From assembly GCF_030177935.1 (NCBI RefSeq), contig NZ_CP089974.1, positions 1,922,001 to 1,986,000 of the forward strand: a DNA stretch of 64,000 nucleotides, read 5' to 3'. The stretch is from Moraxella haemolytica (lineage in GTDB: Bacteria > Pseudomonadota > Gammaproteobacteria > Pseudomonadales > Moraxellaceae). The stretch's first letter is position 1. Each line of letters opens with the position of its first letter. Under the pieces are notes generated by a model that worked only from the letters and a program-made list of their open reading frames with translations, was not told where the DNA came from and did no database searches. A program made the translations under genes and the position numbers. Shown here piece after piece: positions 4,478 to 64,000 of this stretch.

Positions 4478-4489
4478 GGTTTAATTTCA

Positions 4490-7605: not shown

Positions 7606-7741
7606 AGCTATCCTATTGATTTACCAATAAAAGTTTAAAATACAAAAAATTTTTTTACAAAAATCAACCAATTATTATCGCATGCTTTAGTACACTAGGC
7701 AAATGATTTTATGTGGTTGTAAAACTTTTTCTAGACATCAA

Positions 7742-7769
7742 TTGACTTTCTGATAAAGTACTATATAAT
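7742..7769 (+). promoter_or_regulatory. Sigma-70-type promoter for the 105-aa lipoprotein gene
   Basis: TTGACT at 7742-7747, a 16-bp spacer and a consensus TATAAT at 7764-7769. Transcription would start near 7776, leaving a leader of about 70 nt before the ATG at 7845. Confidence 0.7.
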
Positions 7770-7844
7770 TACATAATTGATAGATTGTTTTTTATATCCA
7801 TCAATTATGTATATTAACCGTAACATCATCCAGAGGGATTTTTT

Positions 7845-8162: not shown

Positions 8163-8171
8163 TTGACTCAC

Positions 8172-8213
8172 AAGCATTAAAAAACCGTTCTTTTGAACGG
8201 TTTTTTAATGCTT
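8172..8213. terminator. Bidirectional terminator between the small lipoprotein gene and scoB
   Basis: Perfect 19-bp inverted repeat (AAGCATTAAAAAACCGTTC with TTTT loop). It ends inside the scoB stop codon, so it terminates both the lipoprotein transcript and the ketone-body operon. Confidence 0.92.
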
Positions 8214-8844: not shown

Positions 8845-8847
8845 TGG

Positions 8848-9552
8848 TTACTCCTTGTTCTTGATGGTTCTTTGTTCAATGCGTTTTTCTGGATTGGCAT
8901 TGACAACAATGCGGTGTACATAGATACCTGGCAAATGAATGCTATTAGGATCAAGTTCGCCCACTTCTACCAATTCTTCTACTTCCACCACGCAGATTTT
9001 GCCAGCTGTTGCGACATCAGGGTTGAAGTTTCTTGCGGTTTTGTTAAAAATCAAATTACCTGCCTTGTCCGCTTTATGTGCCTTAATAAGCGATACATCG
9101 GCGACAAGCGAGCGTTCTAGCACATAGTCTCGTCCATCAAAATTACGAATCTCTTTACCTTCAGAGACTTGTGTTCCCACACCTGTTGCGGTAAAGAAAG
9201 CAGGAATGCCGGCACCGCCAGCACGCAGTTTCTCAGCCAGTGTACCTTGTGGGGTTAGCTCCACCTCCAAATCACCTGACAAGAACTGGCGTTCAAACTC
9301 TTTATTCTCCCCCACATAAGATGCAATCATTTTTTTGATTTGGCGAGTTTGCAAAAGCAATCCAAGCCCAAAATCATCTACGCCTGCGTTATTACTGATA
9401 CAAGTCAAACCCTGCACGCCACTATCACGCAAAGAAGCAATGAGACTCTCTGGAATGCCACAAAGCCCAAAACCACCCACCGCAATCACTTGTCCATCTG
9501 CCACAATGTCTTTTAGTGCCAGTTCGGCACTGTCAAATACCTTAGAACTCAT
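8848..9552 (-). CDS. scoA: 3-oxoacid CoA-transferase subunit A
   Basis: Alpha subunit of the heteromeric CoA-transferase, 234 aa. GGFGLCGIPESLI near the N terminus and CISNNAGVDDFGLGLLL are the CoA-binding signatures of this subunit, followed by GTLAEKLRAGGAGIPAFFTATGVGT and the KTARNFNP region. It starts at an ATG with GAAGGA upstream, 46 bp after the atoE stop, and is followed directly by scoB. With the neighbouring dehydrogenase it would take 3-hydroxybutyrate through acetoacetate to acetoacetyl-CoA. Confidence 0.92.
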   Translation of the reverse strand: MSSKVFDSAELALKDIVADGQVIAVGGFGLCGIPESLIASLRDSGVQGLTCISNNAGVDDFGLGLLLQTRQIKKMIASYVGENKEFERQFLSGDLEVELTPQGTLAEKLRAGGAGIPAFFTATGVGTQVSEGKEIRNFDGRDYVLERSLVADVSLIKAHKADKAGNLIFNKTARNFNPDVATAGKICVVEVEELVEVGELDPNSIHLPGIYVHRIVVNANPEKRIEQRTIKNKE

Positions 9553-43592: not shown

Positions 43593-44020
43593 ATGAAAAT
43601 ATCACGCATCCTATTCACCCTACTACGGGCATTAGGCTTAGGCGTGGCAAGACCTGCGATGGCAGATGACTTTTGCCACCGCTACATCTTATTTAAACAC
43701 CAAAAACTACGAGCAAGCCTTTGCTATTTTTAAAAGATTAGCCAAGCAAGGGCTTGTAGAAGCTCAATATAATCTGGGCAATATGTATCGTAGTGAAGAT
43801 GGTATCAATCAGGACTATGAGCAGGCTCTCTCTTGGTATGAAAAGGCAGCCAAGCAAGGAGATGTACAGTCTCAAACCATTGTGGGTATGCTATATGCCA
43901 TTGGCAAAGGCGTAAACCAAGATTATGTGCCGCCAAAGAGTGGTTTGGTAAAGCCCATGATTTAGGATTCCAAGATGGCTGCGACGCCTATGAAATGCTG
44001 GGCGAACTAGAACAAACCCA
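43593..44020 (+). pseudogene. Sel1-repeat protein gene broken by two frameshifts
   Basis: A copy of the secreted Sel1-repeat genes that follow. It keeps a ribosome site (TTGGAG), an ATG and the signal (MKISRILFTLLRALGLGVAR, ending PAMADDF). An extra T in the run at 43671-43674, compared with the paralogues, shifts the frame into an early stop. The body then continues in the frame that begins at 43666 with TATSYLNTKNYEQAFAIFKR and two Sel1 motifs. A second shift, a 2-bp insertion at 43926-43929 (GATTATGTGCC against GATTATGCC), breaks the last repeat. Two independent lesions make decay more likely than a sequencing slip or a single phase-variable site. Confidence 0.85.
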
Positions 44021-44130
44021 CAGACTACACTCAATCAAATACAAAGGGCAGACATTCCTTATATCCTTTTTAGTTGCCAAAGACAGCAAAATCAGATATC
44101 ATACATCAACACAATTTTTTGGAGCATATT

Positions 44131-44664
44131 ATGAAAACATCACGCACCCTATCTGCCCTACTACTGGCACTCAGTCTAAGTGTGGCAGCACCTGCGATGG
44201 CAGATGACTTTGATACCGCTGTGTCTTATTTAAACACCCAAAACTATAAGCAAGCTCTCCCTATTTTTACAAAATTAGCTAATCAAGGGGACGCAAGGGC
44301 TCAATATGGTTTGGGTGTCATGTATGACAACGGACAGGGCATCAAAAAGAATGATGCTCAGGCGGTGGCTTGGTTTACAAAAGCCGCTGAGCAAGGGCTT
44401 GCAGAAGCTCAATATAATTTGGGCAATAAGTATGTCAATGGCGAAGGCGTACGCCAAAGCTATGCCCAAGCTCTAGCGTGGTACAACAAAGCCCAAGCCC
44501 AAGGGGTTGCACAAGCCGCCCATAATATCGGGGTGCTATATCTTAGTGGCGAAGGCATCAACCAAGATTATACCGCCGCCAAAGAGTGGTTTGGCAGAGC
44601 CTGTGATTTAGGATTCCAAGATGGCTGCAACACCTATAAAATGCTCAGCCAACGAGGCTACTAA
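44131..44664 (+). CDS. Secreted Sel1-repeat protein, three repeats
   Basis: A 177-aa exported protein. I start at the ATG at 44131 because it has TTGGAG upstream and opens the signal MKTSRTLSALLLALSLSVAA, cut after PAMA. Three Sel1 units follow, each about 36 residues and of the form AQYNLGNKYVNGEGV...A.AWY.KAA.QG, folding into alpha-alpha hairpins that bind peptides or proteins. The C terminus ends CNTYKMLSQRGY, as in the neighbouring paralogue. Sel1 proteins act as scaffolds in envelope or host-interaction complexes; the partner here is unknown. Confidence 0.88.
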   Translation: MKTSRTLSALLLALSLSVAAPAMADDFDTAVSYLNTQNYKQALPIFTKLANQGDARAQYGLGVMYDNGQGIKKNDAQAVAWFTKAAEQGLAEAQYNLGNKYVNGEGVRQSYAQALAWYNKAQAQGVAQAAHNIGVLYLSGEGINQDYTAAKEWFGRACDLGFQDGCNTYKMLSQRGY

Positions 44665-44773
44665 TCCACAGTCTACAGCGCCAAATGACCAATCAGGCTG
44701 TAATGGTCATCATTATAGCTAGTAGGTATGGTGGTATCTATCAGATACTAACAAAAGCCTGTACTTAATCAAA

Positions 44774-44810
44774 ACAAAAAGGACGGATATGGTTTTTCCG
44801 TCCTTTTTGT
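44774..44810 (+). terminator. Terminator between the second and third Sel1 genes
   Basis: Perfect 14-bp inverted repeat ACAAAAAGGACGGA / TCCGTCCTTTTTGT with a 9-nt loop. Confidence 0.85.
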
Positions 44811-44869
44811 TGCCAAAGAAAACAAAATCCTGTATCATCTCACGGATATTTAGCTATCTGGAGATACTG

Positions 44870-45835
44870 ATGAGAACATCACGCACCCTATCTGCCCTAC
44901 TACTGGCATTAGGCTTAAGTGTGGCAGCACCTGCGATGGCAGATGACTTTGATACCGCTGTGTCTTATGTAAACACCCAAAACTACGAGCAAGCCTTTGC
45001 TATTTTTAAAAAATTAGCCGAACAAGGGGATGCTGTAGCCCAAACTATCGTGGGTGCGATGTATGCCAAAGGCGAGGGTGTCAGCCAAGATTATGCCCAA
45101 ACCCTAGCGTGGTATAACAAATCAGCCGAGCAAGGAGATGCAAACGCTCAACATAATCTGGGTAATATGTATCTTAGTGGAGAAGGTGTCAAGCAGGATT
45201 ATGCTCAGGCGGTATCTTGGTATAAAAAGGCAGCCGAGCAAGGAGATGCAAACTCTCAAAACAATTTGGGTGTGATGTATGCAAATGGGCAAGGCGTCAA
45301 GCAGGATTATGCTCAGGCGGTATCTTGGTATAAAAAGGCAGCCGAGCAGGGACACACCAAGGCTCAATATAATCTAGGTATGATGTATGATAATGGGCAG
45401 GGCATACAACAAGACTTTACTCAAGCATTCTTTTGGTATAAAAAAGCAGCCGAGCAAGGGCATATAGAGGCTCAATATAATCTGGGCAATATGTATCTTA
45501 GTGGAGAAGGTGTCAAGCAGGATTATGCTCAGGCATTCTTATGGTTTAGACAGGCGGCCGAGCAAGGGCATACAGATGCTCAAAATAATTTGGGTAATAT
45601 GTACGCTGTTGGACTGGGCGTAAACCAAAGCTATACCGAAGCCCTAGCATGGTATACACAAGCCCACACCCAAGGTAATACAAAAGTTGCTCAGAATATC
45701 GGAGTACTCTATTACAATGGTCAAGGCGTAAGCCAAGATTATGCCATCGCCAAAGAATGGTTTGGCAAAGCCTGTCAATCAGGATACCAAAACAGCTGTG
45801 ATACCTATGAAATGCTTAGCCAACAAGGCTACTAA
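44870..45835 (+). CDS. Secreted Sel1-repeat protein, seven repeats
   Basis: A 321-aa exported protein starting at the ATG at 44870 (TGGAGAT upstream; signal MRTSRTLSALLLALGLSVAA, cut after PAMA). Seven Sel1 units are visible, from AQTIVGAMYAKGEGV to AQNIGVLYYNGQGV, and the end (CDTYEMLSQQGY) matches the neighbouring copy. Units 2-5 are very close in DNA; for example KQDYAQAVSWYKKAAEQG occurs twice with identical bases 108 bp apart (45193 and 45301). The gene can therefore gain or lose repeats. Substrate or partner is unknown. Confidence 0.9.
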   Translation: MRTSRTLSALLLALGLSVAAPAMADDFDTAVSYVNTQNYEQAFAIFKKLAEQGDAVAQTIVGAMYAKGEGVSQDYAQTLAWYNKSAEQGDANAQHNLGNMYLSGEGVKQDYAQAVSWYKKAAEQGDANSQNNLGVMYANGQGVKQDYAQAVSWYKKAAEQGHTKAQYNLGMMYDNGQGIQQDFTQAFFWYKKAAEQGHIEAQYNLGNMYLSGEGVKQDYAQAFLWFRQAAEQGHTDAQNNLGNMYAVGLGVNQSYTEALAWYTQAHTQGNTKVAQNIGVLYYNGQGVSQDYAIAKEWFGKACQSGYQNSCDTYEMLSQQGY

Positions 45836-47447: not shown

Positions 47448-48224
47448 ATGATTGACACTCTCCCCATCGCCTTAGACCTGCAAGACATTCACAAAAACTA
47501 CGGCTCACTGTCCGTACTCAAAGGCGTCTCTTTGACCGCCTATGATGGCGATGTCATCAGCATTCTAGGTTCGTCAGGTTCGGGCAAATCTACCTTGCTA
47601 CGCTGTATCAACCTACTTGAAAAACCCACCAAAGGTAGCATCACCATCGGCAATGAAGCCTTAATCTTGACCGAGAAAAAAGGCGAATTGGTCGCCAAAA
47701 ATCCAAGACAGCTAGAAAGTTTACGCTCAAAAATCGGCTTCGTATTCCAAAATTTCAACCTATGGCCACACAAAACCATCTTGGATAACATCATCGAAGG
47801 TCCAACCCAAGTACTCAAACAACCCAAAGATCAGGCAATCGCCGAAGCCGAACACCTACTCAACAAGGTTGGTCTGCTTGACAAAAAAAATGCCTATCCT
47901 GACAATCTGTCAGGCGGTCAGCGTCAGCGTGTGGCAATCGCTCGTGCTTTGGCAATGAAGCCACAGGTGCTACTGTTTGATGAGCCGACCTCAGCATTAG
48001 ACCCTGAGCTGGTCAATGAAGTACTGTCTGTCATGCGTGGGCTGGCCGCAGAGGGTCGCACCATGCTCATTGTTACCCACGAGATGCGTTTTGCTCGTGA
48101 GGTATCAGATAAGATTGTGTTTTTACATCAAGGACGCATTGAAGAGATTGGCACGCCTGACGAGGTCTTTGATAACCCAAAATCTGAGCGTGTGCGTGAA
48201 TTCATGGCATCGCATCGCTCTTAG
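47448..48224 (+). CDS. Polar amino-acid ABC transporter ATP-binding protein
   Basis: ATPase of a polar amino-acid importer (HisP/GlnQ class), 258 aa. Walker A GSSGSGKST, Q-loop in FVFQNFNLWPHKT, signature LSGGQRQRVAIARAL, Walker B LLFDEPTSALDPE and the switch His in VTHEMRFAREV are intact. The insert AAIGNEALI-like region and GTPDEVFDNPKSERVREF tail are typical for histidine/arginine/lysine systems. Two binding-protein genes follow. No permease gene is in the window, so the membrane subunits must be encoded elsewhere or are shared. Confidence 0.92.
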   Translation: MIDTLPIALDLQDIHKNYGSLSVLKGVSLTAYDGDVISILGSSGSGKSTLLRCINLLEKPTKGSITIGNEALILTEKKGELVAKNPRQLESLRSKIGFVFQNFNLWPHKTILDNIIEGPTQVLKQPKDQAIAEAEHLLNKVGLLDKKNAYPDNLSGGQRQRVAIARALAMKPQVLLFDEPTSALDPELVNEVLSVMRGLAAEGRTMLIVTHEMRFAREVSDKIVFLHQGRIEEIGTPDEVFDNPKSERVREFMASHRS

Positions 48225-48334
48225 GGTTTGACTTAAGGTTTGTTGTTCAAGTTCGTTTTTGGTACTTATTTTGTTAGTATTTGCTTATTAATATCTGTTT
48301 TGTTAATCTCTACTTGTTAGTTTAAGGACATTTT

Positions 48335-49087
48335 ATGTTATATAAATTCGCAGGCGTTACCGCCATCGCTCTTGCCCTAGTCGCTTGCAGTCAAGACAAG
48401 CCTGCCCAGACGACCGAACAGCGTCAGCTGACCATCGCCACCGAAGCGGCTTATCCCCCATTTAATGACACCGCTCCAGATGGCAAGATTGTCGGCTTTG
48501 ATGTTGAGGTCATCAATGCCGTGTGTGCCGAAATCAACGCCAAATGCGACATTGTCGCCCAAGATTGGGAAGGTCTAATCCCTGGTCTTAATGCCAAAAA
48601 ATACGACGCCATCATCGCAGGTATGTCCATCACTCCAGAACGCCTAGAGCAGGTGGATTTTACCGAGCCGTATTTTTCTAATACCATCGTTTGGCTATCT
48701 AAGACCGATGGTAGCTTCGACCCAAACAACATCACCAACAAAATCCTAGGTTCACAGCGTTCAACCACAGGGGCTGCCTATATCGCCGAAAAATATGACG
48801 GCAAAGATGGCAACACCGTCAAGCTCTACGACACCTACCTAAACGCCTATCTTGACCTAAAAGCAGGTCGTAACGCTGCTGTCATGGCAGAAAAAGTCTC
48901 TGCCGCCGAATGGCTAAAACAAGAACAGCAAGGCTTTGGCTTGGTCGGCGAAGAGATTGACAACAACGACAATCTGGGCATTGCGGTTCGCAAAGGCGAC
49001 ACCCTAAAAGATGAATTCAACCAAGCCCTTACCAAACTCAAAGAATCAGGTAAATTGGCAGAGATTGAAACTGCCAGTTTTCAATAA
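48335..49087 (+). CDS. Amino-acid ABC transporter substrate-binding lipoprotein
   Basis: A 250-aa receptor with a lipoprotein signal (MLYKFAGVTAIALALVAC, lipobox LVAC). The SBP family-3 domain is complete: LTIATEAAYPPFNDTAPDGKI-type ligand pocket start, GFDVEVINAVCAEINAKCD, QDWEGLIPGLNAKKYDAIIAGMSITPERLEQVDFTEPYF and GIAVRKGDTLKDEFNQAL. These fit a basic or polar amino acid; the ligand is unknown. It lies 110 bp after the ATPase gene. Confidence 0.9.
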   Translation: MLYKFAGVTAIALALVACSQDKPAQTTEQRQLTIATEAAYPPFNDTAPDGKIVGFDVEVINAVCAEINAKCDIVAQDWEGLIPGLNAKKYDAIIAGMSITPERLEQVDFTEPYFSNTIVWLSKTDGSFDPNNITNKILGSQRSTTGAAYIAEKYDGKDGNTVKLYDTYLNAYLDLKAGRNAAVMAEKVSAAEWLKQEQQGFGLVGEEIDNNDNLGIAVRKGDTLKDEFNQALTKLKESGKLAEIETASFQ

Positions 49088-49159
49088 TTCATCAGCCATC
49101 ACTAGCGTGGCAATCAGCCCACGCTAAAACCAATCAAAAATAAGTAAGGGGCAATCATC

Positions 49160-49936
49160 ATGAAACTAAAACTACTTAGCATATTGGCAATCAGCACCCT
49201 TGTTGTTGCCTGTAGCAATAATCAAGGGGCAGACGACAAGAGTGCAGCCACTACCGGCGAAAAACAAATCCGCATCGCCACCGAATCTAGCTTTAAGCCA
49301 TTTAGCTACCTAGATGCCAGCGGTAACTTGGTGGGCTTTGAGATTGACCTAGCCAACGCCCTATGCCAAGAGATGGTCGCCAAATGCGATATCCAAAGCC
49401 AAGATTGGGACGGTCTGATTGTCGGTCTAAATGCCAAAAAATTTGATGCCGTCATGGCAGGTATGTCAGCGACCAGCGAGCGTGCCGAAGTGGTGGATTT
49501 TAGCGATTCGTATTTTAACAACACCCTAGTCCTGCTTGGTCAAAAAGGCGTTGAGCTCAATGCCAACACCCTAGATGACAAAAACATCGCCGTACAGCAG
49601 GCCACCGTTTCTGCCGACTACCTAACCAAAAACCACCCCAAAGCAACCATCAAAGCATACAGCACCCAAGACAATGCTTATCTTGATTTGACCGCTGGTC
49701 GTGTCGATGGTATGTTGTCAGACATCGTTCCTGCATTAGACTGGCTAAAAACCGAGCAAGGGGCTGATTTTGAAGTCAAAGGTGAACCGATTGACATCAA
49801 CGACAGCGTCGCCATCGCCCTACGCAAAAATGACCCACTCAAAGACGAATTCAACACCGCTCTTGCCACCCTAAAACAAAACGGCAAATATGATGAGTTG
49901 GTGGATAAATATTTTGACAAAACCATCATCAAATAA
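49160..49936 (+). CDS. Amino-acid ABC transporter substrate-binding lipoprotein, second paralogue
   Basis: A 258-aa paralogue of the preceding receptor, also a lipoprotein (MKLKLLSILAISTLVVAC, lipobox VVAC). Shared blocks include IRIATESSFKPFSYLD, GFEIDLANALCQEMVAKCD, QDWDGLIVGLNAKKFDAVMAGMSATSERAEVVDFS and KNDPLKDEFNTALATLKQNGKYDEL. Sequence divergence from its neighbour in the ligand loop suggests a different amino acid. Two binding proteins could feed one ATPase/permease set. AAGGGG is upstream. It is the last gene before the adhesin island. Confidence 0.9.
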   Translation: MKLKLLSILAISTLVVACSNNQGADDKSAATTGEKQIRIATESSFKPFSYLDASGNLVGFEIDLANALCQEMVAKCDIQSQDWDGLIVGLNAKKFDAVMAGMSATSERAEVVDFSDSYFNNTLVLLGQKGVELNANTLDDKNIAVQQATVSADYLTKNHPKATIKAYSTQDNAYLDLTAGRVDGMLSDIVPALDWLKTEQGADFEVKGEPIDINDSVAIALRKNDPLKDEFNTALATLKQNGKYDELVDKYFDKTIIK

Positions 49937-50145
49937 CCAAAATGGGCGTCAGCCACTTAACTTAACCACAAGAAATATTAACAGGAGGCAACAATCACTA
50001 ATTAGCAACATAGCAGTTTTGTTACATCTACCCCCTGCTCTTGTCCATGCAGGCATCGTTGTGTTAGAGCCATCCAACTTCAACCAAGAGATGAATCGTT
50101 AACGCTTGGTCATATAAACAAAACTTAACAAAACACCCCCTAACG

Positions 50146-50178
50146 AAGCCAAACAATGCCATGAGTCGTGTTTGGCTT
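50146..50178. other. Hairpin in the leader of the collagen-like adhesin gene
   Basis: Perfect 10-bp inverted repeat AAGCCAAACA / TGTTTGGCTT with a 13-nt loop, ending about 50 bp upstream of the adhesin ATG. No T tract follows, so it may be an operator or an mRNA structure rather than a terminator. Confidence 0.45.
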
Positions 50179-50227
50179 ACGAATAAATAGCAACATTTCA
50201 TCAGTCATTATTATTTGTGAGTAAATT

Positions 50228-52552
50228 ATGAATAAAAACCTAATGAAACAGCGCAACAAAAACCGTACCGCCCATACCAACAACTTTAGTATCCACATTC
50301 CAATAACATCCCTGACACTGGCAGTAATAACCACCCTACCCATGATGACTACTAAGGCATATGCTCAGCAGGGATTTGTTCCTGCTGGTCACTCACAAGG
50401 GAAAGGAGCTACTGCGGTTGGACAAGGGTCTCAAGCAATGGCAAATTTAGCTACTGCGGTTGGATCTGATGCCCAAGCAACAAAAGCGAGCTCTACTGCA
50501 CTTGGTGCAGGTTCTAGAGCAACTCAAGGGACCTCTACTGCACTTGGTGCAAGTTCTCAAGCAATGGGACTGGATTCTACCGCACTTGGGCAAGGTTCTC
50601 AAGCATTGGAGCAAAACTCTACTGCGGTTGGACAAGGGGCTCAAGCAACAGCAGTAGGTACTATTGCACTTGGGAAAAGTGCTCAAGCAACAATGACAAG
50701 CTCTTTTGCACTTGGGCAGGGAGCTCAGGCAACAGGACAGAACGCTATTGCCATTGGTAACAATACTATGGTTCGGTCTGTAGGAGCTGTAGCACTTGGT
50801 CATGGCATCACCATTAGTAATGACTCTAATCATGCTGTGGTGCTTGGCAATGGGAGTACATATACTACACCCATGCCAACAGCAGATTACTCATTTATGC
50901 TTCCATCAGCCACCAATAGCTCCGGAGTGCGTACCACAATCAATTTTGCAGGAACTCGTCCAACATCAGCCGTTTCTATCGGTGCAAAACATCAAGAACG
51001 CCAAATCGTCCATGTCGCTGCTGGTCGTGTTACTGCAGACTCAACCGATGCGATCAACGGCTCTCAGTTATACGGCGTGCTAACTGCGATACAGAGCATA
51101 AAAATACCAGATGTATTAATTGGTGCTGGAGAGCCAAATACTCAAGGCAAAGAAGGTGATATCTACATTAACAGCACTACCGGAGATCTGTACAAAAAAA
51201 CAGGAAATAGATGGGGTGCTAAAGTTGGAAGTCTCAAAGGTCCTAAGGGTGATAAAGGCGACACTGGTCCGCAGGGTCCACAAGGTCCAGCTGGTGATAA
51301 AGGCGAACAAGGGGAACAAGGTCCTAAGGGTGAGAAAGGCGAAACTGGTCCACAAGGTCCAGCAGGTCCAGCTGGTGAAAAAGGCGAACAAGGGGGACAA
51401 GGTGAGCAAGGTCCTAAAGGTGATAAAGGCGACACTGGTCCACAAGGTCCACAAGGTCCAGCTGGTGATAAAGGCGAACAAGGGGAACAAGGTCCAGCAG
51501 GTCCAGCTGGTGATAAAGGCGAACAAGGGGAACAAGGTCCTAAAGGTGATAAAGGCGACACCGGTCCGCAGGGTCCAGCTGGTCCAGCAGGTGAAAAAGG
51601 CGAACAAGGGGAACAAGGGGAACAAGGGGAACAAGGTCCTAAGGGTGATAAAGGCGAAACTGGTCCACAAGGTCCAGCAGGTCCAGCTGGTGAAAAAGGC
51701 GAACAAGGGGAACAAGGGGAACAAGGGGAACAAGGTCCTAAGGGTGATAAAGGCGAAACTGGTCCACAAGGTCCTAAAGGTGAGCAAGGTCCTAAAGGTG
51801 ATAAAGGCGATATCGATCAAGCCACTAAGGATAAAATCCAACAAAGCATCAATGAGGCCAAGACCGCCAATGACAAAGCTGTCATCGCTGATAATAAAGC
51901 CACCCAAGCACAACAAACAGCCAATACCAATGCTGCTAAAATCAGCAAAGGTCTGAATGTTAAAACTCAAGATAATAAAACCACCAACCACCAGTTAGGC
52001 GATACGATTACCATCACTGGTCAGTCGAACATTAGCACCAACACAGAGCAAGGCAGTGTTGTCGTATCATTAAATGACGATATTACTGTTAAATCGGTAA
52101 CTGCTGAGCGTGTCGTGGCAGATCAGGTAGTAGTCGGTCCTGTCAGTATCGCAAAAGACACAGGCATCAATGCAGGTGGTCTGACCGTGCAGAATGTCGC
52201 TGATGGTCGTATCGCACCAGACAGCACAGATGCTGTCAATGGCAGTCAGTTGTTGGGTGTTTATAACCACATCGATGAGCGTGTCTTTGGTATTGGCAAC
52301 CGCATTGATGAGATCGAAGACCGCCTACAGGCAGGCATCGCAGGTAATCATGCAGCCATGTCATTACCACAAGCCACACTAGCAGGTCAATCGATGGTCT
52401 CAGTTGCACTGGGTACATATGCCGATAAAAGTGCCGTCGCCATCGGTTATTCTCGGCTAAGCGGTAGCGGACGAGTAACCTTGAAGTCGCATTTAAGTGC
52501 TGATACCAAAAAAAAGGTCGGTGCTGGCGTAGGTGTAGGTCTTGCGTGGTAA
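50228..52552 (+). CDS. Trimeric autotransporter adhesin with collagen-like stalk
   Basis: Surface adhesin of the YadA type, 774 aa. Order of parts: signal peptide ending TTKAYA (1-46), a YadA-like head of 14-residue repeats such as [10 protein letters not shown] (~57-215), a first neck with [15 protein letters not shown] (~272-287), a short globular piece [17 protein letters not shown], then 64 uninterrupted Gly-X-Y triplets (338-529) rich in PKGDKGD, PQGPAGP and EKGEQGEQ, a coiled coil (~530-580, Ala/Lys/Gln-rich), a second neck ([15 protein letters not shown]) and a YadA anchor (~700-774) ending in Trp. The signal lacks the extended region of the neighbouring adhesin. The collagen-like part should fold as a triple helix, matching the trimer; host ligands are unknown. 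Confidence 0.92.
51239..51814 (+). repeat. Collagen-like Gly-X-Y coding repeat
   Basis: 576 bp coding for 64 consecutive Gly-X-Y triplets without interruption. The DNA is built of near-identical 9-bp units such as GGGGAACAA (Glu-Gln-Gly) and larger blocks of GATAAAGGCGA... and GGTCCACAAGGTCCAGC..., so it can expand or contract in 9-bp steps without breaking the frame. Confidence 0.9.
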
Positions 52553-52588
52553 CCCACCTTCTGTAATACCAATATACTAATGATGCCC

Positions 52589-52620
52589 GTGTGCTTTGCC
52601 CTATTTGGGCTCAAGCACAC
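52589..52620 (+). terminator. Possible terminator of the collagen-like adhesin gene
   Basis: Stem GTGTGCTT..GCCC with GGGC..AAGCACAC around a TATT loop, 37 bp after the stop codon. The following T-rich stretch is weak. Confidence 0.5.
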
Positions 52621-52738
52621 AGGTTAATTGTCTTTGGCAACACAATACAAAACCCCAACCACAGTCAGCCATTAGTAATAAAACAACAATGATTATCAAT
52701 GGTAACAATAAAATAACAACTCTCTTTCATTATTTTAT

Positions 52739-52749
52739 CCCCCCCCCCC
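52739..52749 (+). promoter_or_regulatory. 11-bp poly-C tract upstream of the giant adhesin gene
   Basis: Eleven consecutive C about 280 bp before the ATG at 53028. A weak -35-like TTTTAT (52733-52738 region) and -10-like TAAATA (52757-52762) would place the tract in the promoter spacer, where slippage changes spacing and transcription. The hexamers are poor matches, so the promoter is a hypothesis; the tract itself is certain. Confidence 0.6.
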
Positions 52750-52801
52750 TGCGGAGTAAATATTGTGGTAAAATACACCCATGTAAGCTAAATATATTAG
52801 C

Positions 52802-52844
52802 AATATTATCAATTGATAATATTAATTAATAATATCAATTGATA
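52802..52844. repeat. Paired AT-rich palindromes
   Basis: TATCAATTGATA occurs at 52807-52818 and 52833-52844, 26 bp apart; the first is embedded in a perfect 22-bp palindrome at 52802-52823. The arrangement suggests a dimeric-regulator site or a bendable AT-rich element upstream of the giant adhesin gene. Confidence 0.55.
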
Positions 52845-53027
52845 ATATTAATGAATAACAACTTAAGTTTGGGTTATAATCCAACAAAACACCCAAACAA
52901 TCACACCAAGCAATGCACAGCACAGTTTGGTTCATAAAGGTTTGGTCATCAAACCGCATTGATTTTTTTAACCGCCCTTGTAAAAATTCAGTCAACAAGG
53001 GTGGGCTAACTACGCTGGAATGAAAGT

Positions 53028-56000
53028 ATGAATAAAGTCTATAAGGTTATTTTTAACCGCACCACACAAGTGTTTCAAGCTGTCTCTGAATTGGCTCGTG
53101 GTCATCAACGCACCCAAACCGGTAGCACATCATTAAGCAAAGACCCTACTCAAAGCAGCAGCTTTCATCTAAACCCAATTGCCAGTGCAATAGACTCTCT
53201 TAAACCAGCAGTTCGTTCGTTCGCCCTAACCACCCTACTGCTCAGCGGACTGAGCTTTTCTGGGAGTGTGTCGGCTCAGTTTTGGGAAGGTCGTAACGAG
53301 GGTTCAGAGAACTTGGTTTGGGGGGGGGCGTCATGTAACCAGTAACCCAACTGGCAATGCTTTACCTTATACTGGACCAGGAAGAGTCCATGCCTATAAC
53401 TCGATTGTGATCGGGCACAGTACTTTCCTTGGCAGCTCAGCGGTTCCCGGTGCAACTACGCCAAACTCAAACGTGATTATCGGTTACGCGGCAATCGGAC
53501 GGGGTGAGCAAGTTCAAAATGCGATTGCTTTAGGGGCGAGAGCGAATACCGGTGGTAACCAAACAATCTCTATCGGGGCAGACTCGGTAACCGTGAGTCA
53601 AGGTAACATCTCTATTGGTTCGCAAGCGTCCTCTAGGGACCCAAACTCTCTTGCTATCGGGACAGGGGCTAAATCAAGCGGCGGATCAGTAGCGATAGGT
53701 AACGCAGCAGAGGCAGCTAATACGTCTATTGTGGTTGGTTATAGCTCAAAATCTAAGTCTAGCAACGGGACGGTACTGGGGATTAGTGCAACCAATGCCA
53801 GTAACAACGGGACGGTTATTGGGTATGGAGCGACGGTTAATGCCAATTCACTAAATGGGATTGCAATAGGACGTTCTGCAACAGTTCAAACCAGATCGCA
53901 AGGCGGTATTGCGATTGGTTCTGGCACGAATATTCAAGGTTTGAATTCTCTTGGTATAGGAACATCAGCTATAGCAAAAGGATCATCAGTGGCCATCGGT
54001 AGTTCAGCACGGGCGGATAACAGCTCTATCGTTATTGGTATAGGCTCAGTTGGCTTATCCACCAACGGTGTGGTGCTAGGGAATCAAGCAATCAACAATG
54101 GCAAAGACAGTACGGTTATCGGGTATGGGGCAAAGCTTTCCGGTGATGGGGCAGATGTGTTCAGAGTAGGTCGGGCTCGTGAATTAGAAAACTCCTTAGT
54201 TGTGGGGACAGATGCTCGTGCGTGGTCAGGACACTCGGTGGTGCTGGGGCGTGAGGCACAGGTTGGTAATGCTAATAGTGATGCGGTTAGCGGTACAGCA
54301 GTGGGTGAGCGTGCCAAAGCACTTGCCTATCGTAGTACGGCACTGGGGAGTAATGCGTTGGTTGACGCCAGCGGAGACGGCGGTATCGCGATTGGTCGCT
54401 CTGCTTTATCGAATGCCCCACAAGGGATTGCGATTGGCTCGGGAGATGCAGATAGCGCTAGAAACCCTGCAACGGTAAATGCAGAGGGGGGGGTTGCGAT
54501 TGGGCATAACGCCAGGGTTGACACTGATCATAAACGAGCAGTGGCGATAGGTTATAGTACAACTGCCGGTGGTGCGTATAACGTGGTCATCGGTAATGGA
54601 GCATCAGCATCCGACAGTGAAAATGTGGCTATCGGTAGAAATTCAAGTGCGTCTGATACGACAGCGAGAGGTGATTTAACAGTTGGACAAAAGACCTTTT
54701 TGGCGAATCAATGGAAAGCCCACAACAAAACTCATTCTTTTTCAGTGGGTTCATCGGGGAGTGAGCGAGTTATTCAGAATGTAGCGGCCGGTACGATTGG
54801 CCCCAACAGCACCGAAGCGATTAACGGCTCGCAGTTGTATAGAATTGTAGAGGGTATCGGGTTTGATGTGCATGATAATGCCGGTGCTAAAAAAGCAACC
54901 GTTGGTATCGGCAATAAAGTAAGCTTTAAGAAAGGGAATAGTGGTTTAGTTAGCGTTGAGACAGCCACAGATGGGAGAACGGGCGGCACACAAGAGAATG
55001 CGAGAGTAACCTTTGATGTCATAACGCAGGGGCTTGAAAGTCAAAATACTAAAACAAAGGTAATGGCTGCGAGCGGTCCAACAGGTTTGGCGAAATCTGC
55101 TGATGTGGCACAGGCGATTAACGATGTAGCAGAAGCGTTACAAAAGGATATAAAAAACATTGGCGTAAGCTGGAAGCTGGCTACAAAAGCCGGCACAGGT
55201 ACAGCGGCTAACAGACAGCATACAATCACATCTAATCAGACAGCAACATTCCAAGCCGGTAAAAACATAGTACTAGCACAGGCAGCTGGAACCATCGATA
55301 TTGCCGTAAAGGACAGTCCAACATTTAACACAATTACTACAACCGGCATTGCGACCATCGGCGGTACGCTAAATGCCAACGGTGGCTTGACGGTAGCAAA
55401 TAACAAAACGGTTAATTTTAATAATAATAGACTGACTAATGTGGGTAATGCTACAGCTGATACTGATGCAGTCAATAAGAGACAGTTGGATGAAAAGGCG
55501 GCAGAATTAACCAATACAGGATTGAAGTTTCGGGGTGATTCAAACGAAGCCTCAAAATTTTTCACACGTAAGTTGAACGAGGAAGTACAAATTACCGGCG
55601 GTGCTAATGAGAATCAGTTGACTACTAACAATATTGGGGTGGTTGTTAATGGTTCCAATCTACAAGTAAAACTTGCTAAAACTCTGTCTGGGTTAACTTC
55701 AGTAACAACAAACTCACTGACAGTCAATAATAGTGCCACCTTTACACAAGGCATAACCTTAGGTAATGCCAACAATGGTCCGAAGATTGTTAATAATGGT
55801 GATGCCATCAAGGTTCAGAAGAACGGAGGAGGGTATGCTCGAATCACCAATATTTGGGACGGTAAAGATGCTTTTGATGCAGTCAATAAAGGGCAGTTGG
55901 ACGAGCTGGCTAATACAGGATTACAGTTTGAAGGTGATTCAGCTAGTGATGTTGCCACTCGCAAGTTAGGCCAAAAACTGAATATTACCGGCGGTGCTAA

Positions 56001-59000
56001 TAGGGATAAGTTGACTAATAATAATATTGGGGTGGTTGTTGGTGGTAATGGTCTGGTTGTAAAACTTGCCAAGAATATTAGTGGGTTGGAAACCATTAAA
56101 ACCACCGGTCGTATTACAGCCGGTGGTGGTTTGACAGTGACTACTGGGGGCGTGACTGTTGCTAATGGCGGCATAACGGTTACTCAAGGTGGCTTGACGG
56201 TGACCGCTGGCCCAACCAATTTGAACGGTGGCTTGACAGTAACCGGTAATACACAGGTTGCTAAACTAACAGCAACTGGTGATACATCACTTAAAAAGGT
56301 GGATGTTACTGGTAAGCTGAATGTGACTGGCCCAACCAATTTGACCGGTGGTGCGACTGTTGGTGGCAATGGTTTGACTGTTAATAATGGTGGCATAACG
56401 GTTACTCGCGGTGGTTTGACTGTTCAGGCTGGTGCATCGAGCTTTGGTGATAAAGTGACGGTTACTCGAGGTGGTTTGGATGTTAGCGGTGCTACCACGC
56501 TTGGAAGTACTTTGAATGTGACGGGTGCGGCAAATGTTGGTGGTATGCTAAATGCCAACGGTGGCTTGACGGTAGCAAGAAGCCAAAAGGTTGATTTTAA
56601 TAATAATAAACTGACTAAGGTGGCTGATGCTGTAGCTGATACTGATGCAGTCAATAAGAAACAGCTGGATGCCTGGGCTGACAAAGGGATAAAGTTTTTG
56701 GGTGATTCAAACAAAGACGGACAACATCTCACACGTAAGTTGGGCACGGACATAAAAATTACCGGCGGTGCTGATGAGAGTAAGTTGACTAATAACAATA
56801 TTGGGGTGGTTGTTGGTGACAAGGGATTGGAAGTAAAACTATCCAACACACTGACTGGGTTAACTTCAGTAACAACAGAGTCACTAACAGTCAATAATGG
56901 TGCGACCATCTCTGGTAAATTAACAGCGAACAACGATTTTGAGGCGAAGGGTGCGACCACGCTTAGAAGTACCACTGCAAGTACGTTGAATGTGACTGGT
57001 GCAACCAACTTGACCGGTGGTGCGACTGTTGGTGGCAATGGTTTGACTGTTAATAATGGTGGCATAAAGGTTACTCGAGGTGGTTTGACTGTTCAGGCTG
57101 GTGCATCGAGCTTTGGTGATAAAGTGACGGTTACTCGAGGTGGTTTGGATGTTAGCGGTGCTACCACGCTTGGAAGTACTTTGAATGTGACGGGTGCGGC
57201 AAATGTTGGTGGTATGCTAAATGCCAACGGTGGCTTGACGGTAGCAAGAAGCCAAAAGGTTGATTTTAATAATAATAAACTGACTAAGGTGGCTGATGCT
57301 GTAGCTGATACTGATGCAGTCAATAAGAAACAGCTGGATGCCTGGGCTGACAAAGGGATAAAGTTTTTGGGTGATTCAAACAAAGACGGACAACATCTCA
57401 CACGTAAGTTGGGCACGGACATAAAAATTACCGGCGGTGCTGATGAGAGTAAGTTGACTAATAACAATATTGGGGTGGTTGTTGGTGACAAGGGATTGGA
57501 AGTAAAACTATCCAAAACACTGACTGGGTTAACTTCAGTAGCAACAAACTCACTAACAGTCAATAATGGTGCGACGATTGGCGGGAAATTAACGGCTCGC
57601 GGTGGTTTGACAGTAACCGGCGGCAAAACTGAGTTGCAACAAGGTTTGGAAGTAACCGGTGACACAAAAGTTGCTAACCTAACAGCAACCGGTAATACAT
57701 TGCTTCAAAAAGTGGATGTTGCTGGTGCGTTGGATGTGACTGGTAAAACAACGGTTACACAATTAGAAGCAAGCGGCGAAGTGACGCTTAAAGATGCGTT
57801 AATCGTTGAGGGTCAAGCACAGCTTAAAGATACCTTGGTTGTTGATAAGCAGGCGACCTTTAAACAAGGTGTGACCTTAGGTGACACTACCGGTCCGAAG
57901 ATTGTGCGTGATGGTGACAATATCAAAGTTCAGAAGAATGGTGGTGGTGCAGCACGTATTACCAATATTGCTGCTGGTGAACAAGACGGTGATGCGGTTA
58001 ACTTTAAGCAAGTGAAGGACGGAATTGCTGGTATTACCACTAAAGGTCTTAAGTTTGCAGGCGATATTAACGGTGAAGTCCATCGTGAATTAGGTCAGGC
58101 GCTGACGATTACCGGTGGTGTAACCCAAGAGGGGAATCTGACTGACAGTAATATCGGTGTAGTGAAAAATCCTAATAATCAGGGATTGATTGTAAAACTT
58201 GCCAAGAATCTTCAAAACCTAGATTCAGTAGCGACAAACACACTGACAACCACTGGAGCTGCGACTATTGGTGGTGGTTTGACAGTGACCGGTGATACAT
58301 CGCTTCAAAAAGTGGATGTTACTGGTGCGTTGGATGTGACTGGTAAAACAACGGTTACACAATTAGAAGCAAGCGGCGAAGTGACGCTTAAAGATGCGTT
58401 AATCGTTGAGGGTCAAGCACAGCTTAAAGATACCTTGGTTGTTACCAAAGAAGCAACCTTTAATGGTGCAGTTACGGCAAATCAAGGTTTGACTGTTGCT
58501 CAGGGTAACTTGGAAGTAACCAATGGCAATACTACGCTTAAGACTTTGACTGTTAATGAAACGCTAGCTGTTAAGCAAAAAGCAACCTTTGAACAAGGTC
58601 TGGATGTGACTGCCGGTAAAACCAATTTGAACGGTGGTTTGACAGTAACCGGCGGCAAAACTGAGTTGCAACAAGGTTTGGAAGTAACCGGTGACACAAA
58701 AGTTGCTAACCTAACAGCAACCGGTAATACATTGCTTCAAAAAGTGGATGTTGCTGGTGCGTTGGATGTGACTGGTAAAACAACGGTTACACAATTAGAA
58801 GCAAGCGGCGAAGTGACGCTTAAAGATGCGTTAATCGTTGAGGGTCAAGCACAGCTTAAAGATACCTTGGTTGTTGATAAGCAGGCGACCTTTAAACAAG
58901 GTGTGACCTTAGGTGACACTACCGGTCCGAAGATTGTGCGTGATGGTGACAATATCAAAGTTCAGAAGAATGGTGGTGGTGCAGCACGTATTACCAATAT

Positions 59001-62000
59001 TGCTGCTGGTGAACAAGACGGTGATGCGGTTAACTTTAAGCAAGTGAAGGACGGAATTGCTGGTATTACCACTAAAGGTCTTAAGTTTGCAGGCGATATT
59101 AACGGTGAAGTCCATCGTGAATTAGGTCAGGCGCTGACGATTACCGGTGGTGTAACCCAAGAGGGGAATCTGACTGACAGTAATATCGGTGTAGTGAAAA
59201 ATCCTAATAATCAGGGATTGATTGTAAAACTTGCCAAGAATCTTCAAAACCTAGATTCAGTAGCGACAAACACACTGACAACCACTGGAGCTGCGACTAT
59301 TGGTGGTGGTTTGACAGTGACCGGTGATACATCGCTTCAAAAAGTGGATGTTACTGGTGCGTTGGATGTGACTGGTAAAACAACGGTTACACAATTAGAA
59401 GCAAGCGGCGAAGTGACGCTTAAAGATGCGTTAATCGTTGAGGGTCAAGCACAGCTTAAAGATACCTTGGTTGTTACCAAAGAAGCAACCTTTAATGGTG
59501 CAGTTACGGCAAATCAAGGTTTGACTGTTGCTCAGGGTAACTTGGAAGTAACCAATGGCAATACTACGCTTAAGACTTTGACTGTTAATGAAACGCTAGC
59601 TGTTAAGCAAAAAGCAACCTTTGAACAAGGTCTGGATGTGACTGCCGGTAAAACCAATTTGAACGGTGGTTTGACAGTAACCGGCGGCAAAACTGAGTTG
59701 CAACAAGGTTTGGAAGTAACCGGTGACACAAAAGTTGCTAACCTAACAGCAACCGGTAATACATTGCTTCAAAAAGTGGATGTTGCTGGTGCGTTGGATG
59801 TGACTGGTAAAACAACGGTTACACAATTAGAAGCAAGCGGCGAAGTGACGCTTAAAGATGCGTTAATCGTTGAGGGTCAAGCACAGCTTAAAGATACCTT
59901 GGTTGTTGATAAGCAGGCGACCTTTAAACAAGGTGTGACCTTAGGTGACACTACCGGTCCGAAGATTGTGCGTGATGGTGACAATATCAAAGTTCAGAAG
60001 AATGGTGGTGGTGCAGCACGTATTACCAATATTGCTGCTGGTGAACAAGACGGTGATGCGGTTAACTTTAAGCAAGTGAAGGACGGAATTGCTGGTATTA
60101 CCACTAAAGGTCTTAAGTTTGCAGGCGATATTAACGGTGAAGTCCATCGTGAATTAGGTCAGGCGCTGACGATTACCGGTGGTGTAACCCAAGAGGGGAA
60201 TCTGACTGACAGTAATATCGGTGTAGTGAAAAATCCTAATAATCAGGGATTGATTGTAAAACTTGCCAAGAATCTTCAAAACCTAGATTCAGTAGCGACA
60301 AACACACTGACAACCACTGGAGCTGCGACTATTGGTGGTGGTTTGACAGTGACCGGTGATACATCGCTTCAAAAAGTGGATGTTACTGGTGCGTTGGATG
60401 TGACTGGTAAAACAACGGTTACACAATTAGAAGCAAGCGGCGAAGTGACGCTTAAAGATGCGTTAATCGTTGAGGGTCAAGCACAGCTTAAAGATACCTT
60501 GGTTGTTACCAAAGAAGCAACCTTTAATGGTGCAGTTACGGCAAATCAAGGTTTGACTGTTGCTCAGGGTAACTTGGAAGTAACCAATGGCAATACTACG
60601 CTTAAGACTTTGACTGTTAATGAAACGCTAGCTGTTAAGCAAAAAGCAACCTTTGAACAAGGTCTGGATGTGACTGCCGGTAAAACCAATTTGAACGGTG
60701 GTTTGACAGTAACCGGCGGCAAAACTGAGTTGCAACAAGGTTTGGAAGTAACCGGTGACACAAAAGTTGCTAACCTAACAGCAACCGGTAATACATTGCT
60801 TCAAAAAGTGGATGTTGCTGGTGCGTTGGATGTGACTGGTAAAACAACGGTTACACAATTAGAAGCAAGCGGCGAAGTGACGCTTAAAGATGCGTTAATC
60901 GTTGAGGGTCAAGCACAGCTTAAAGATACCTTGGTTGTTGATAAGCAGGCGACCTTTAAACAAGGTGTGACCTTAGGTGACACTACCGGTCCGAAGATTG
61001 TGCGTGATGGTGACAATATCAAAGTTCAGAAGAATGGTGGTGGTGCAGCACGTATTACCAATATTGCTGCTGGTGAACAAGACGGTGATGCGGTTAACTT
61101 TAAGCAAGTGAAGGACGGAATTGCTGGTATTACCACTAAAGGTCTTAAGTTTGCAGGCGATATTAACGGTGAAGTCCATCGTGAATTAGGTCAGGCGCTG
61201 ACGATTACCGGTGGTGTAACCCAAGAGGGGAATCTGACTGACAGTAATATCGGTGTAGTGAAAAATCCTAATAATCAGGGATTGATTGTAAAACTTGCCA
61301 AGAATCTTCAAAACCTAGATTCAGTAGCGACAAACACACTGACAACCACTGGAGCTGCGACTATTGGTGGTGGTTTGACAGTGACCGGTGATACATCGCT
61401 TCAAAAAGTGGATGTTACTGGTGCGTTGGATGTGACTGGTAAAACAACGGTTACACAATTAGAAGCAAGCGGCGAAGTGACGCTTAAAGATGCGTTAATC
61501 GTTGAGGGTCAAGCACAGCTTAAAGATACCTTGGTTGTTACCAAAGAAGCAACCTTTAATGGTGCAGTTACGGCAAATCAAGGTTTGACTGTTGCTCAGG
61601 GTAACTTGGAAGTAACCAATGGCAATACTACGCTTAAGACTTTGACTGTTAATGAAACGCTAGCTGTTAAGCAAAAAGCAACCTTTGAACAAGGTCTGGA
61701 TGTGACTGCCGGTAAAACCAATTTGAACGGTGGTTTGACAGTAACCGGCGGCAAAACTGAGTTGCAACAAGGTTTGGAAGTAACCGGTGACACAAAAGTT
61801 GCTAACCTAACAGCAACCGGTAATACATTGCTTCAAAAAGTGGATGTTGCTGGTGCGTTGGATGTGACTGGTAAAACAACGGTTACACAATTAGAAGCAA
61901 GCGGCGAAGTGACGCTTAAAGATGCGTTAATCGTTGAGGGTCAAGCACAGCTTAAAGATACCTTGGTTGTTGATAAGCAGGCGACCTTTAAACAAGGTGT

Positions 62001-64000
62001 GACCTTAGGTGACACTACCGGTCCGAAGATTGTGCGTGATGGTGACAATATCAAAGTTCAGAAGAATGGTGGTGGTGCAGCACGTATTACCAATATTGCT
62101 GCTGGTGAACAAGACGGTGATGCGGTTAACTTTAAGCAAGTGAAGGACGGAATTGCTGGTATTACCACTAAAGGTCTTAAGTTTGCAGGCGATATTAACG
62201 GTGAAGTCCATCGTGAATTAGGTCAGGCGCTGACGATTACCGGTGGTGTAACCCAAGAGGGGAATCTGACTGACAGTAATATCGGTGTAGTGAAAAATCC
62301 TAATAATCAGGGATTGATTGTAAAACTTGCCAAGAATCTTCAAAACCTAGATTCAGTAGCGACAAACACACTGACAACCACTGGAGCTGCGACTATTGGT
62401 GGTGGTTTGACAGTGACCGGTGATACATCGCTTCAAAAAGTGGATGTTACTGGTGCGTTGGATGTGACTGGTAAAACAACGGTTACACAATTAGAAGCAA
62501 GCGGCGAAGTGACGCTTAAAGATGCGTTAATCGTTGAGGGTCAAGCACAGCTTAAAGATACCTTGGTTGTTACCAAAGAAGCAACCTTTAATGGTGCAGT
62601 TACGGCAAATCAAGGTTTGACTGTTGCTCAGGGTAACTTGGAAGTAACCAATGGCAATACTACGCTTAAGACTTTGACTGTTAATGAAACGCTAGCTGTT
62701 AAGCAAAAAGCAACCTTTGAACAAGGTCTGGATGTGACTGCCGGTAAAACCAATTTGAACGGTGGTTTGACAGTAACCGGCGGCAAAACTGAGTTGCAAC
62801 AAGGTTTGGAAGTAACCGGTGACACAAAAGTTGCTAACCTAACAGCAACCGGTAATACATTGCTTCAAAAAGTGGATGTTGCTGGTGCGTTGGATGTGAC
62901 TGGTAAAACAACGGTTACACAATTAGAAGCAAGCGGCGAAGTGACGCTTAAAGATGCGTTAATCGTTGAGGGTCAAGCACAGCTTAAAGATACCTTGGTT
63001 GTTGATAAGCAGGCGACCTTTAAACAAGGTGTGACCTTAGGTGACACTACCGGTCCGAAGATTGTGCGTGATGGTGACAATATCAAAGTTCAGAAGAATG
63101 GTGGTGGTGCAGCACGTATTACCAATATTGCTGCTGGTGAACAAGACGGTGATGCGGTTAACTTTAAGCAAGTGAAGGACGGAATTGCTGGTATTACCAC
63201 TAAAGGTCTTAAGTTTGCAGGCGATATTAACGGTGAAGTCCATCGTGAATTAGGTCAGGCGCTGACGATTACCGGTGGTGTAACCCAAGAGGGGAATCTG
63301 ACTGACAGTAATATCGGTGTAGTGAAAAATCCTAATAATCAGGGATTGATTGTAAAACTTGCCAAGAATCTTCAAAACCTAGATTCAGTAGCGACAAACA
63401 CACTGACAACCACTGGAGCTGCGACTATTGGTGGTGGTTTGACAGTGACCGGTGATACATCGCTTCAAAAAGTGGATGTTACTGGTGCGTTGGATGTGAC
63501 TGGTAAAACAACGGTTACACAATTAGAAGCAAGCGGCGAAGTGACGCTTAAAGATGCGTTAATCGTTGAGGGTCAAGCACAGCTTAAAGATACCTTGGTT
63601 GTTACCAAAGAAGCAACCTTTAATGGTGCAGTTACGGCAAATCAAGGTTTGACTGTTGCTCAGGGTAACTTGGAAGTAACCAATGGCAATACTACGCTTA
63701 AGACTTTGACTGTTAATGAAACGCTAGCTGTTAAGCAAAAAGCAACCTTTGAACAAGGTCTGGATGTGACTGCCGGTAAAACCAATTTGAACGGTGGTTT
63801 GACAGTAACCGGCGGCAAAACTGAGTTGCAACAAGGTTTGGAAGTAACCGGTGACACAAAAGTTGCTAACCTAACAGCAACCGGTAATACATTGCTTCAA
63901 AAAGTGGATGTTGCTGGTGCGTTGGATGTGACTGGTAAAACAACGGTTACACAATTAGAAGCAAGCGGCGAAGTGACGCTTAAAGATGCGTTAATCGTTG
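53028..64000 (+). CDS. Giant trimeric autotransporter adhesin (Hag/MID-like), phase OFF here, incomplete at window end
   Basis: Translation from the ATG at 53028 gives an extended signal peptide (MNKVYKVIFNRTTQVFQAVS, the ESPR typical of large autotransporters; cleavage after GSVSA at residue 83) but stops at 53345 after 105 codons, because the tract at 53320-53328 has nine G. With eight G the frame joins LVWGG to RHVTSNPTGNALPYTG and stays open to the end of the window, at least 3,650 codons in all. Parts: YadA-type head with SVAIG/GVVLG repeats (53395-54700), neck [16 protein letters not shown] (near 54810), then a stalk of neck-like DAVNKKQLD and NIGVVV...VKLAK modules, a 669-bp duplication, and the 1032-bp tandem repeats. 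The anchor lies beyond the window. Annotated as one gene because no other lesion is seen. Confidence 0.88.
53320..53328 (+). repeat. Coding poly-G tract (9 G) that sets the adhesin frame
   Basis: Nine G within codons 98-101. Upstream codons begin at positions divisible by three; the downstream adhesin frame is read one base later. Removing one G, or adding two, joins them; the present length leads to a TAA at 53343-53345. Homopolymer G in this location is the known switch of Moraxella Hag/MID adhesins. Confidence 0.93.
54486..54493 (+). repeat. Second coding poly-G tract (8 G) in the adhesin head
   Basis: Eight G encoding Glu-Gly-Gly-Val within NAEGGVAIG. At this length the head frame is continuous. 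A change of one base would truncate the protein, so it may be a second slippage site. Confidence 0.7.
56314..57585 (+). repeat. 669-bp duplicated stalk module (two copies)
   Basis: Blocks at about 56314-56982 and 56983-57585 align with an offset of 669 bp (223 codons). They share the GLTVQAGASSFGDKVTVTRG stretch, the DADAVNKKQLD-type neck and the NIGVVVGDKGLEVKLS segment, with few substitutions in the middle and increasing differences at the ends. Older than the 1032-bp array. Confidence 0.85.
57600..64000 (+). repeat. 1032-bp tandem repeat array in the adhesin stalk, 6.2 copies in the window
   Basis: Units begin at 57600, 58632, 59664, 60696, 61728 and 62760, with a partial seventh from 63792. 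Each is 344 codons, so copy changes keep the frame. Comparing copy 1 with copy 6 line by line shows no difference. Each unit encodes short repeats of the type LTVTGDTSLQKVDVTG, one neck-like module (RITNIAAGEQDGDAVNFKQV) and one NIGVVKNPNNQGLIVKLAKN module. A block of about 145 bp occurs twice inside each unit, 600 bp apart. The array continues past the window. Confidence 0.95.

Follow-up and report, generated by a model that had tools for sequence, protein, structure and literature searches.

Perfect 1032-bp tandem units in the stalk of a giant trimeric autotransporter adhesin gene of Moraxella haemolytica, and a second locus with the same head on a different array

The giant adhesin gene and its partner

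A 64,000-nucleotide stretch of the Moraxella haemolytica genome, hereafter the window, ends within a giant gene of ~22.9 kb that encodes a trimeric autotransporter adhesin (TAA, type Vc) with a stalk built on perfect 1032-bp tandem repeats. The genome is a single contig of 2,123,211 bp (C1), of which the window covers C1:1922001-1986000 (window position = C1 - 1922000). The gene starts with an ESPR-type signal peptide (53028-53345, + strand; PF13018, E 1.2e-14), whose frame is 105 amino acids long as assembled, and continues in an open passenger frame (53254-64000, +, and on to C1:1997966) with head, YadA_stalk necks, stalk and, at its end, a YadA anchor. This frame has 7,570 codons from stop to stop, and 7,566 residues are translated from C1:1975266. 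A GTG at 53266 that had been listed as the gene start was set aside, as the ESPR-type start lies at 53028 in a different frame.

Eleven stretches of YadA_stalk (PF05662) were found in the part of the gene inside the window, and the YadA anchor (PF03895) scores above its cut-off, with 61.6 bits each, at the ends of this frame and of a second giant frame described below. The domain search of the window reported the Pfam YadA_head repeat for the neighbouring collagen-like TAA only, not for the giant one. The region before the array resembles the PDB chains UspA1, Hia, "Invasin" 1p9h and "Haemagglutinin family protein" 3la9 (E 7e-7 to 2.4e-3); we take 1p9h to be YadA and 3la9 to be BpaA. With its C-terminal anchor, extended signal peptide, and head-like, neck and stalk modules, the gene has the make-up of a TAA, from which trimerization and surface display are predicted. 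The description as a surface adhesin in an earlier reading of the window from its letters alone (the sequence-only reading) is supported.

The partner gene begins 40 bp after the stop codon of the giant TAA and encodes a BamE domain (PF04355, E 4.6e-13) and an OmpA domain (PF00691, E 6.2e-16). Its domain make-up and place match the TpgA type, with the difference that its signal region reads LTGC, at odds with the absence of a lipoprotein cysteine reported for TpgA. The context of this cysteine is, we presume, lipobox-like. A homolog of the partner gene occurs in 13 of 20 stretches fetched from other species of the genus (tblastn, E <= 1e-10).

Extent, composition and unit order of the array

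Comparison of the window with itself at a lag of 1032 bp gives an exact match of 5,369 bp with zero mismatches (57600 to 62968), so that the period is kept without exception, also at silent positions, over 57600-64000 (6401 bp, 6.2 copies). At other lags the longest exact runs are 437 bp, which belongs to a 669-bp repeat of the giant gene, 86 bp and 61 bp; this survey covered lags of 20 to 8999 over 50001-64000, with the 1032-bp array and its internal repeats set aside. The array is invisible to Tandem Repeats Finder because the longest period which that program considers is 500. The window stops within the array, which runs from 57600 on the + strand to C1:1994904, 8,904 bp past the window edge. 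Its full length as assembled is 15,305 bp, or 14.8 unit equivalents, an exact copy number that depends on the genome assembly, and a single open frame spans it, each unit adding 344 residues of stalk. The perfect repeats, the identity of the first and sixth copies and the in-frame 344-residue unit of the sequence-only reading therefore all stand, and its count of at least 6.2 copies is extended.

The array is composed of eleven 1032-bp units, ten identical and one with two substitutions, together with two 1632-bp units and a 689-bp partial unit. Units 1-7 are identical, unit 8 is the marked one and units 9 and 10 are again identical; a 1632-bp hybrid, one more identical unit, the second hybrid and the 689-bp remainder follow. 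This order bears on the possibility that the assembler inflated or miscounted the array and that the true gene has fewer or different units. Near-identical repeats over 15.3 kb are a difficult case for an assembler, and the count comes from the assembly alone. The genome is nevertheless a single closed contig, 99.94% complete, one open frame crosses the whole array, and a marked unit and two hybrids in fixed order are unlikely products of simple collapse or inflation. The paralog, moreover, holds an independent perfect array of another unit. An assembly artefact is thus quite improbable.

The unit contains a pair of direct repeats of 122 bp, which in the first copy lie at 57722-57843 (+; offset 123-244) and 58322-58443 (+; offset 723-844). 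The 1632-bp hybrids, which are identical to each other, consist of unit positions 1-694 followed by positions 95-1032, the exchange point lying anywhere from 688 to 694, that is, ~30 bp to the left of the 122-bp pair, in its imperfectly matching flank. The hybrid thus appears to be a product of recombination between the two internal repeats of the unit, and recombination is indicated as a force that has shaped the array. Both hybrids sit in a duplicated block of 2664 bp, and a single origin of the hybrid, followed by copying, is probable. The two substitutions of unit 8 are 7 bp apart, and each gives the letter that the other internal repeat has at the corresponding position; they look like a short conversion tract with the same starting place as the hybrid exchange. 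The 600-bp insert of the hybrid is a multiple of 3, as are the periods tested (1032, 873, 669 and 213). The recent expansion or gene conversion proposed in the sequence-only reading agrees with these features, which support concerted evolution. Just before the array, the same stalk carries the 669-bp perfect repeat, revealed by the same lag comparison, in ~1.65 copies (56410-57515, +).

The fold of the unit was approached by sequence and by modeling. A search of PDB sequences gave one weak match, 2yo3 (E 0.0051), which is best at the neck. In the beta-rich part, hydrophobic autocorrelation is highest at 6 residues (0.23, without a shuffle control), and a hexad period in that part stays below the 99% shuffle level in a Fourier test, for which reason no claim of a beta-helix is made.

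A second locus with the same head and a different stalk

The picture of the array is altered most by a paralog outside the window. A second giant TAA copy lies 137.5 kb away (C1:1837527-1850873, in L041 and L042), is in frame and encodes 4,448 amino acids. The duplicated block extends from ~1831664 to 1851830 around the second copy and from ~1969173 to 1998923 around the window copy. Six common blocks, covering head, promoter, anchor and partner gene, amount to 11,646 bp with zero substitutions; their ends were cut back where divergent regions begin and substitutions accumulate, and they include the first copies of the 669-bp repeat. One further substitution lies at most 3 bp from the left edge of the trimmed blocks. 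The middles of the two giant copies, by contrast, are completely different. The second copy has a stalk of 5.1 perfect copies of an 873-bp unit (1842801-1847253), and its array is 4.5 kb long versus 15.3 kb in the window copy. Smaller repeats differ in number as well: the 669-bp repeat is present in ~1.65 copies in the window copy and ~2.7 in the second, and a 213-bp repeat in ~1.6 copies and ~3.8 near-identical copies, respectively. Within the single genome covered, the length variation foreseen in the sequence-only reading is found between its two paralogs.

The 873-bp and 1032-bp units differ by a proportion of synonymous differences (pS) of 0.49, a synonymous divergence (dS) of 0.78 and a nonsynonymous divergence (dN) of 0.28, giving a dN/dS of 0.36 over 226 aligned codons. 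This ratio suggests selection on the stalk protein. Despite a dS of ~0.78 between the two unit types, each array is internally uniform. Because the units differ to this degree, an origin of both arrays from one recent duplication without array replacement was rejected. For flanks to be identical around arrays that are old and different, the flanks must have been converted, an array replaced, or the allele of another strain imported to the second site.

One explanation of this contrast is that the paralogs are old and their arrays evolved separately, while gene conversion keeps the head, the anchor and the neighbouring genes identical; the arrays would then be a passive by-product of recombination, without tuning of length. 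The divergence of the units next to the zero substitutions of the trimmed common blocks, and the concentration of substitutions at the edges of the divergent parts, are what such a history would leave. The dN/dS between the units indicates constraint, however, and arrays of the kind found in Periscope Proteins have been argued to need selection, since identical repeats risk misfolding (PMC8201768, as far as its accessible text goes). A purely passive origin seems rather unlikely; it calls the function into question more than the mechanism, and can in part be reconciled with a reading in which recombination shapes the arrays.

Homopolymer tracts and frame state

As assembled, the reading frame of the window copy is interrupted at a coding poly-G tract (53320-53328, +), across which the signal-peptide and passenger frames are out of register, and the ESPR frame ends after 105 amino acids for this reason. 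The length of the tract differs from that in the in-frame paralog. A poly-C tract (52739-52749, +) in the interval that separates the collagen-like TAA from the giant one also differs in length from that of the paralog. The two copies were compared over 3,369 bp, from the last part of the collagen-like TAA through the intergenic region and signal peptide into the head, most of which is included; they differ there only in the lengths of the poly-C and poly-G tracts. A further poly-G tract in the head coding region (C1:1976486 and C1:1838984) has equal length in both. In the 83 kb formed by the window and its downstream sequence, all three G or C runs of at least 8 lie within the giant gene or just upstream of it. 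A tract early in the coding region, with lengths that differ so that one copy is in frame and the other out, makes the gene a candidate phase-variable locus with simple sequence repeats of the contingency type, as expected from the on/off layer that the sequence-only reading had proposed. A 26-bp AT-rich tandem repeat (52802-52858) that matches itself when inverted lies downstream of the poly-C tract and ahead of the giant TAA start in both copies.

Recombination between units as a probable source of stalk length

These results are likely explained by homologous recombination that homogenizes and resizes the stalk arrays of TAAs at two separately switchable loci, where the same head is carried by stalks of unequal length. 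Exchange between identical 1032-bp units would add or remove whole 344-residue segments in frame and would, at the same time, keep the units identical, so that stalk length would change in steps while head and anchor stay fixed. The uniformity of the units, the length steps, the hybrids and the marked unit would all be accounted for in this way. The second locus would present the identical head on another array, a shorter one, its promoter, anchor and partner protein being identical as well. Since each locus has its own homopolymer tracts, a cell could display the head on the long stalk, on the short stalk, on both or on neither. It is presumed here that the copy number of the array changes at present, that the homopolymer tracts switch expression and that the length of the fibre follows the number of units; stalk variation may then matter for adhesion or escape from antibodies. 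Scaled from AtaA, at ~260 nm for at least 3,604 residues, or ~0.07 nm for each residue, one unit would correspond to ~25 nm, the in-frame copy to ~320 nm and the long frame to ~550 nm. A two-gear adhesin, in which slippage picks the ~320-nm or the ~550-nm display of one head and recombination in the arrays resets each length, is a speculative extension of this scheme, and probably goes too far.

Several observations weigh against the recombination reading. The difference in length is known between two paralogs of one genome, not over time. As assembled, the window copy is out of frame, so this strain may lack the long fibre, and homopolymer lengths are places where assemblies err. The sigma-70-like sites in the vicinity of the C tract are weak, with 5 present where shuffles average 2.4. 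The exchange point of the hybrid lies beside, and not inside, the 122-bp identical stretch. A single-chain model of the unit is poor, with a predicted local distance difference test score (pLDDT) of 55.6 and a predicted template modeling score (pTM) of 0.38, and its structural interpretation was dropped for that reason. The arrays, finally, are not conserved: across the family the unit is matched at E <= 1e-20 in 1 of 348 genomes, which is the own genome itself, and no perfect tandem array with a period of at least 30 bp was found in the largest frames of 20 stretches taken around TAA-like matches in 14 other species of the genus, a sample with many draft genomes, in which arrays collapse, with two stretches containing N and four largest frames running off their stretch, and in which TAA identity is established for only some of the 20 frames.

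Occurrence in the genus

The same array measure gives 7,918 and 4,453 bp at the two loci described here. An apparent 60-bp array of 484 bp in one relative (L117) turned out to consist of N and was discarded. At the looser threshold of E <= 0.001, the unit is matched in 10 of 22 genomes of the genus, the own genome included, and the best match outside the own genome, also within the genus, has 44% identity over ~110 residues. Neither the unit nor the partner gene retrieved any relative in contig scans, from which the own genome may have been excluded. The homopolymer tracts are distributed differently. In nine of the 20 stretches, a G or C run of at least 8 lies no more than 600 bp from where the largest frame starts, and these make up nine of the 11 such runs in 334 kb, where 0.77 would be expected if the runs were evenly spread. 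Homopolymer tracts near the starts of such genes are a habit of the genus, and kilobase arrays are not.

Relation to known adhesin systems

The closest known system in the literature available to us, from which subscription journals are mostly missing, is BadA of Bartonella henselae, a giant TAA with a gene of 8.7-13.2 kb, a conserved head and anchor, and neck/stalk repeats that vary in number and order among strains; frameshifted copies occur, neighbouring badA-like sequences are described as a toolbox, and recombination has been proposed (PMC8859334). The present gene resembles BadA in its giant size, in stalk modules that vary, here between paralogs, and probably recombine, in a frameshifted copy and in having a related copy. 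It differs in that the unit is 344 amino acids long and base-identical, in 14.8 equivalents within a gene of ~22.9 kb. Its related copy, 137.5 kb away, is moreover a complete locus and in frame, where BadA has a pseudogene next to it. In this accessible literature, of which BadA is the nearest case, there is no description of a TAA whose units are perfect and of kilobase size.

The closest concept is that of the Periscope Proteins, in which long and highly identical tandem repeats form a stalk between a distal head and an anchor, and in which repeat number is thought to vary via intragenic recombination (PMC8201768; PMC9704523). In its accessible text, the 2022 review of these proteins excludes TAAs on the ground that they "lack tandem repeat domains" and consist of coiled coils and connector domains in mosaic order. 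The present gene nevertheless has repeats of the length (over 50 residues) and the very high identity that mark Periscope Proteins, its unit being 344 residues long, with DNA identity among 10 of 11 full units. The gene is a TAA by sequence, and so departs from the monomeric state of Periscope Proteins. Because it has perfect tandem units, it would work like a Periscope Protein and yet fall outside that class. A further mark of the class is variation of repeat number among strains; the difference observed here is one between paralogs of one genome. The unit was regarded as unusually large for a contingency repeat in the sequence-only reading; this assigned it to the wrong class, as the array is of another type than slippage repeats, and Periscope Proteins already provide examples of long identical stalk repeats.

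Phase variation is known for other TAAs, namely badE of Bartonella krasnovii (PMC11466379) and uspA1, uspA2 and mid/hag of Moraxella catarrhalis (PMC7302503). In those genes, as here, short-repeat tracts lie early in the coding region or upstream; there they switch or grade expression, as is presumed here. In the accessible text of these reports, neither perfect kilobase stalk arrays nor twin loci with identical heads and different stalks are described. The partner gene recalls AtaA-TpgA of Acinetobacter sp. Tol 5, where the gene of the TAA is followed by that of an SmpA and OmpA-type peptidoglycan-binding protein (PMC5861075; PMC13082670). The likeness lies in the BamE (PF04355) and OmpA domains and in the position downstream of the TAA; TpgA is reported to lack a lipoprotein cysteine, whereas the partner described here has a cysteine in its signal region. 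AtaA, the source of the length scale used above, is given as ~260 nm long with residues numbered to at least 3,604.

Against this background, the novelty lies in how large and how perfect the unit is, and in twin loci that pair one head with two stalks. On the speculative two-gear reading, perfect kilobase-scale tandem units would make TAAs periscope-like, against the current definition. The gene also contradicts the stated view of TAAs as devoid of identical tandem repeats. The two loci offer a natural test pair for surface fibres in which head, anchor and neighbours are alike and the stalk is different. They also suggest that stalk arrays are replaceable or can be re-amplified as modules while their flanks stay identical.

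Neighbouring genes and the parental site

Upstream of the giant TAA lies the gene of a collagen-like TAA of 774 amino acids (50228-52552, +), which is also duplicated. The pair that it forms with its counterpart at the second locus (L041:4720-7053) is mosaic, the ends being alike and the head and the collagen part different. Genes for an ATP-binding cassette (ABC) transporter ATPase and two family-3 solute-binding proteins (47448-49936, +) were duplicated along with the adhesins. All six relatives fetched have this transporter operon, with the ATPase, one to three binding proteins and two permeases closely spaced, and none of the six has a match to the TAA query near it. At the window locus, the TAA pair and the partner gene stand between the second binding protein and the permeases; the second copy has the transporter genes without the permeases. 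The window site is regarded as parental, since the operon is free of TAAs in six of six relatives examined and, in this genome, permeases follow at the window locus alone.

The second locus might accordingly be an allele of another strain that was taken up and integrated ectopically, in which case the difference between the arrays would reflect allelic diversity of the species. The parental status of the window site and the lack of permeases at the second copy fit such an origin. So does a truncated TAA-like fragment of 117 codons (L041:1345-1698; C1:1831344-1831697) that runs into the left edge of the second copy, and the region upstream of it resembles the upstream region of the giant gene (68% over ~214 bp). 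A recent duplication followed by replacement of the array would, however, give an identical picture, and a single isolate was examined; import is a possibility worth entertaining, though on balance doubtful.

Further upstream in the window, three adjacent open frames lie at 43666-45835, the third with a 108-bp tandem repeat at 45110-45603; we take these frames to encode Sel1-like repeats.

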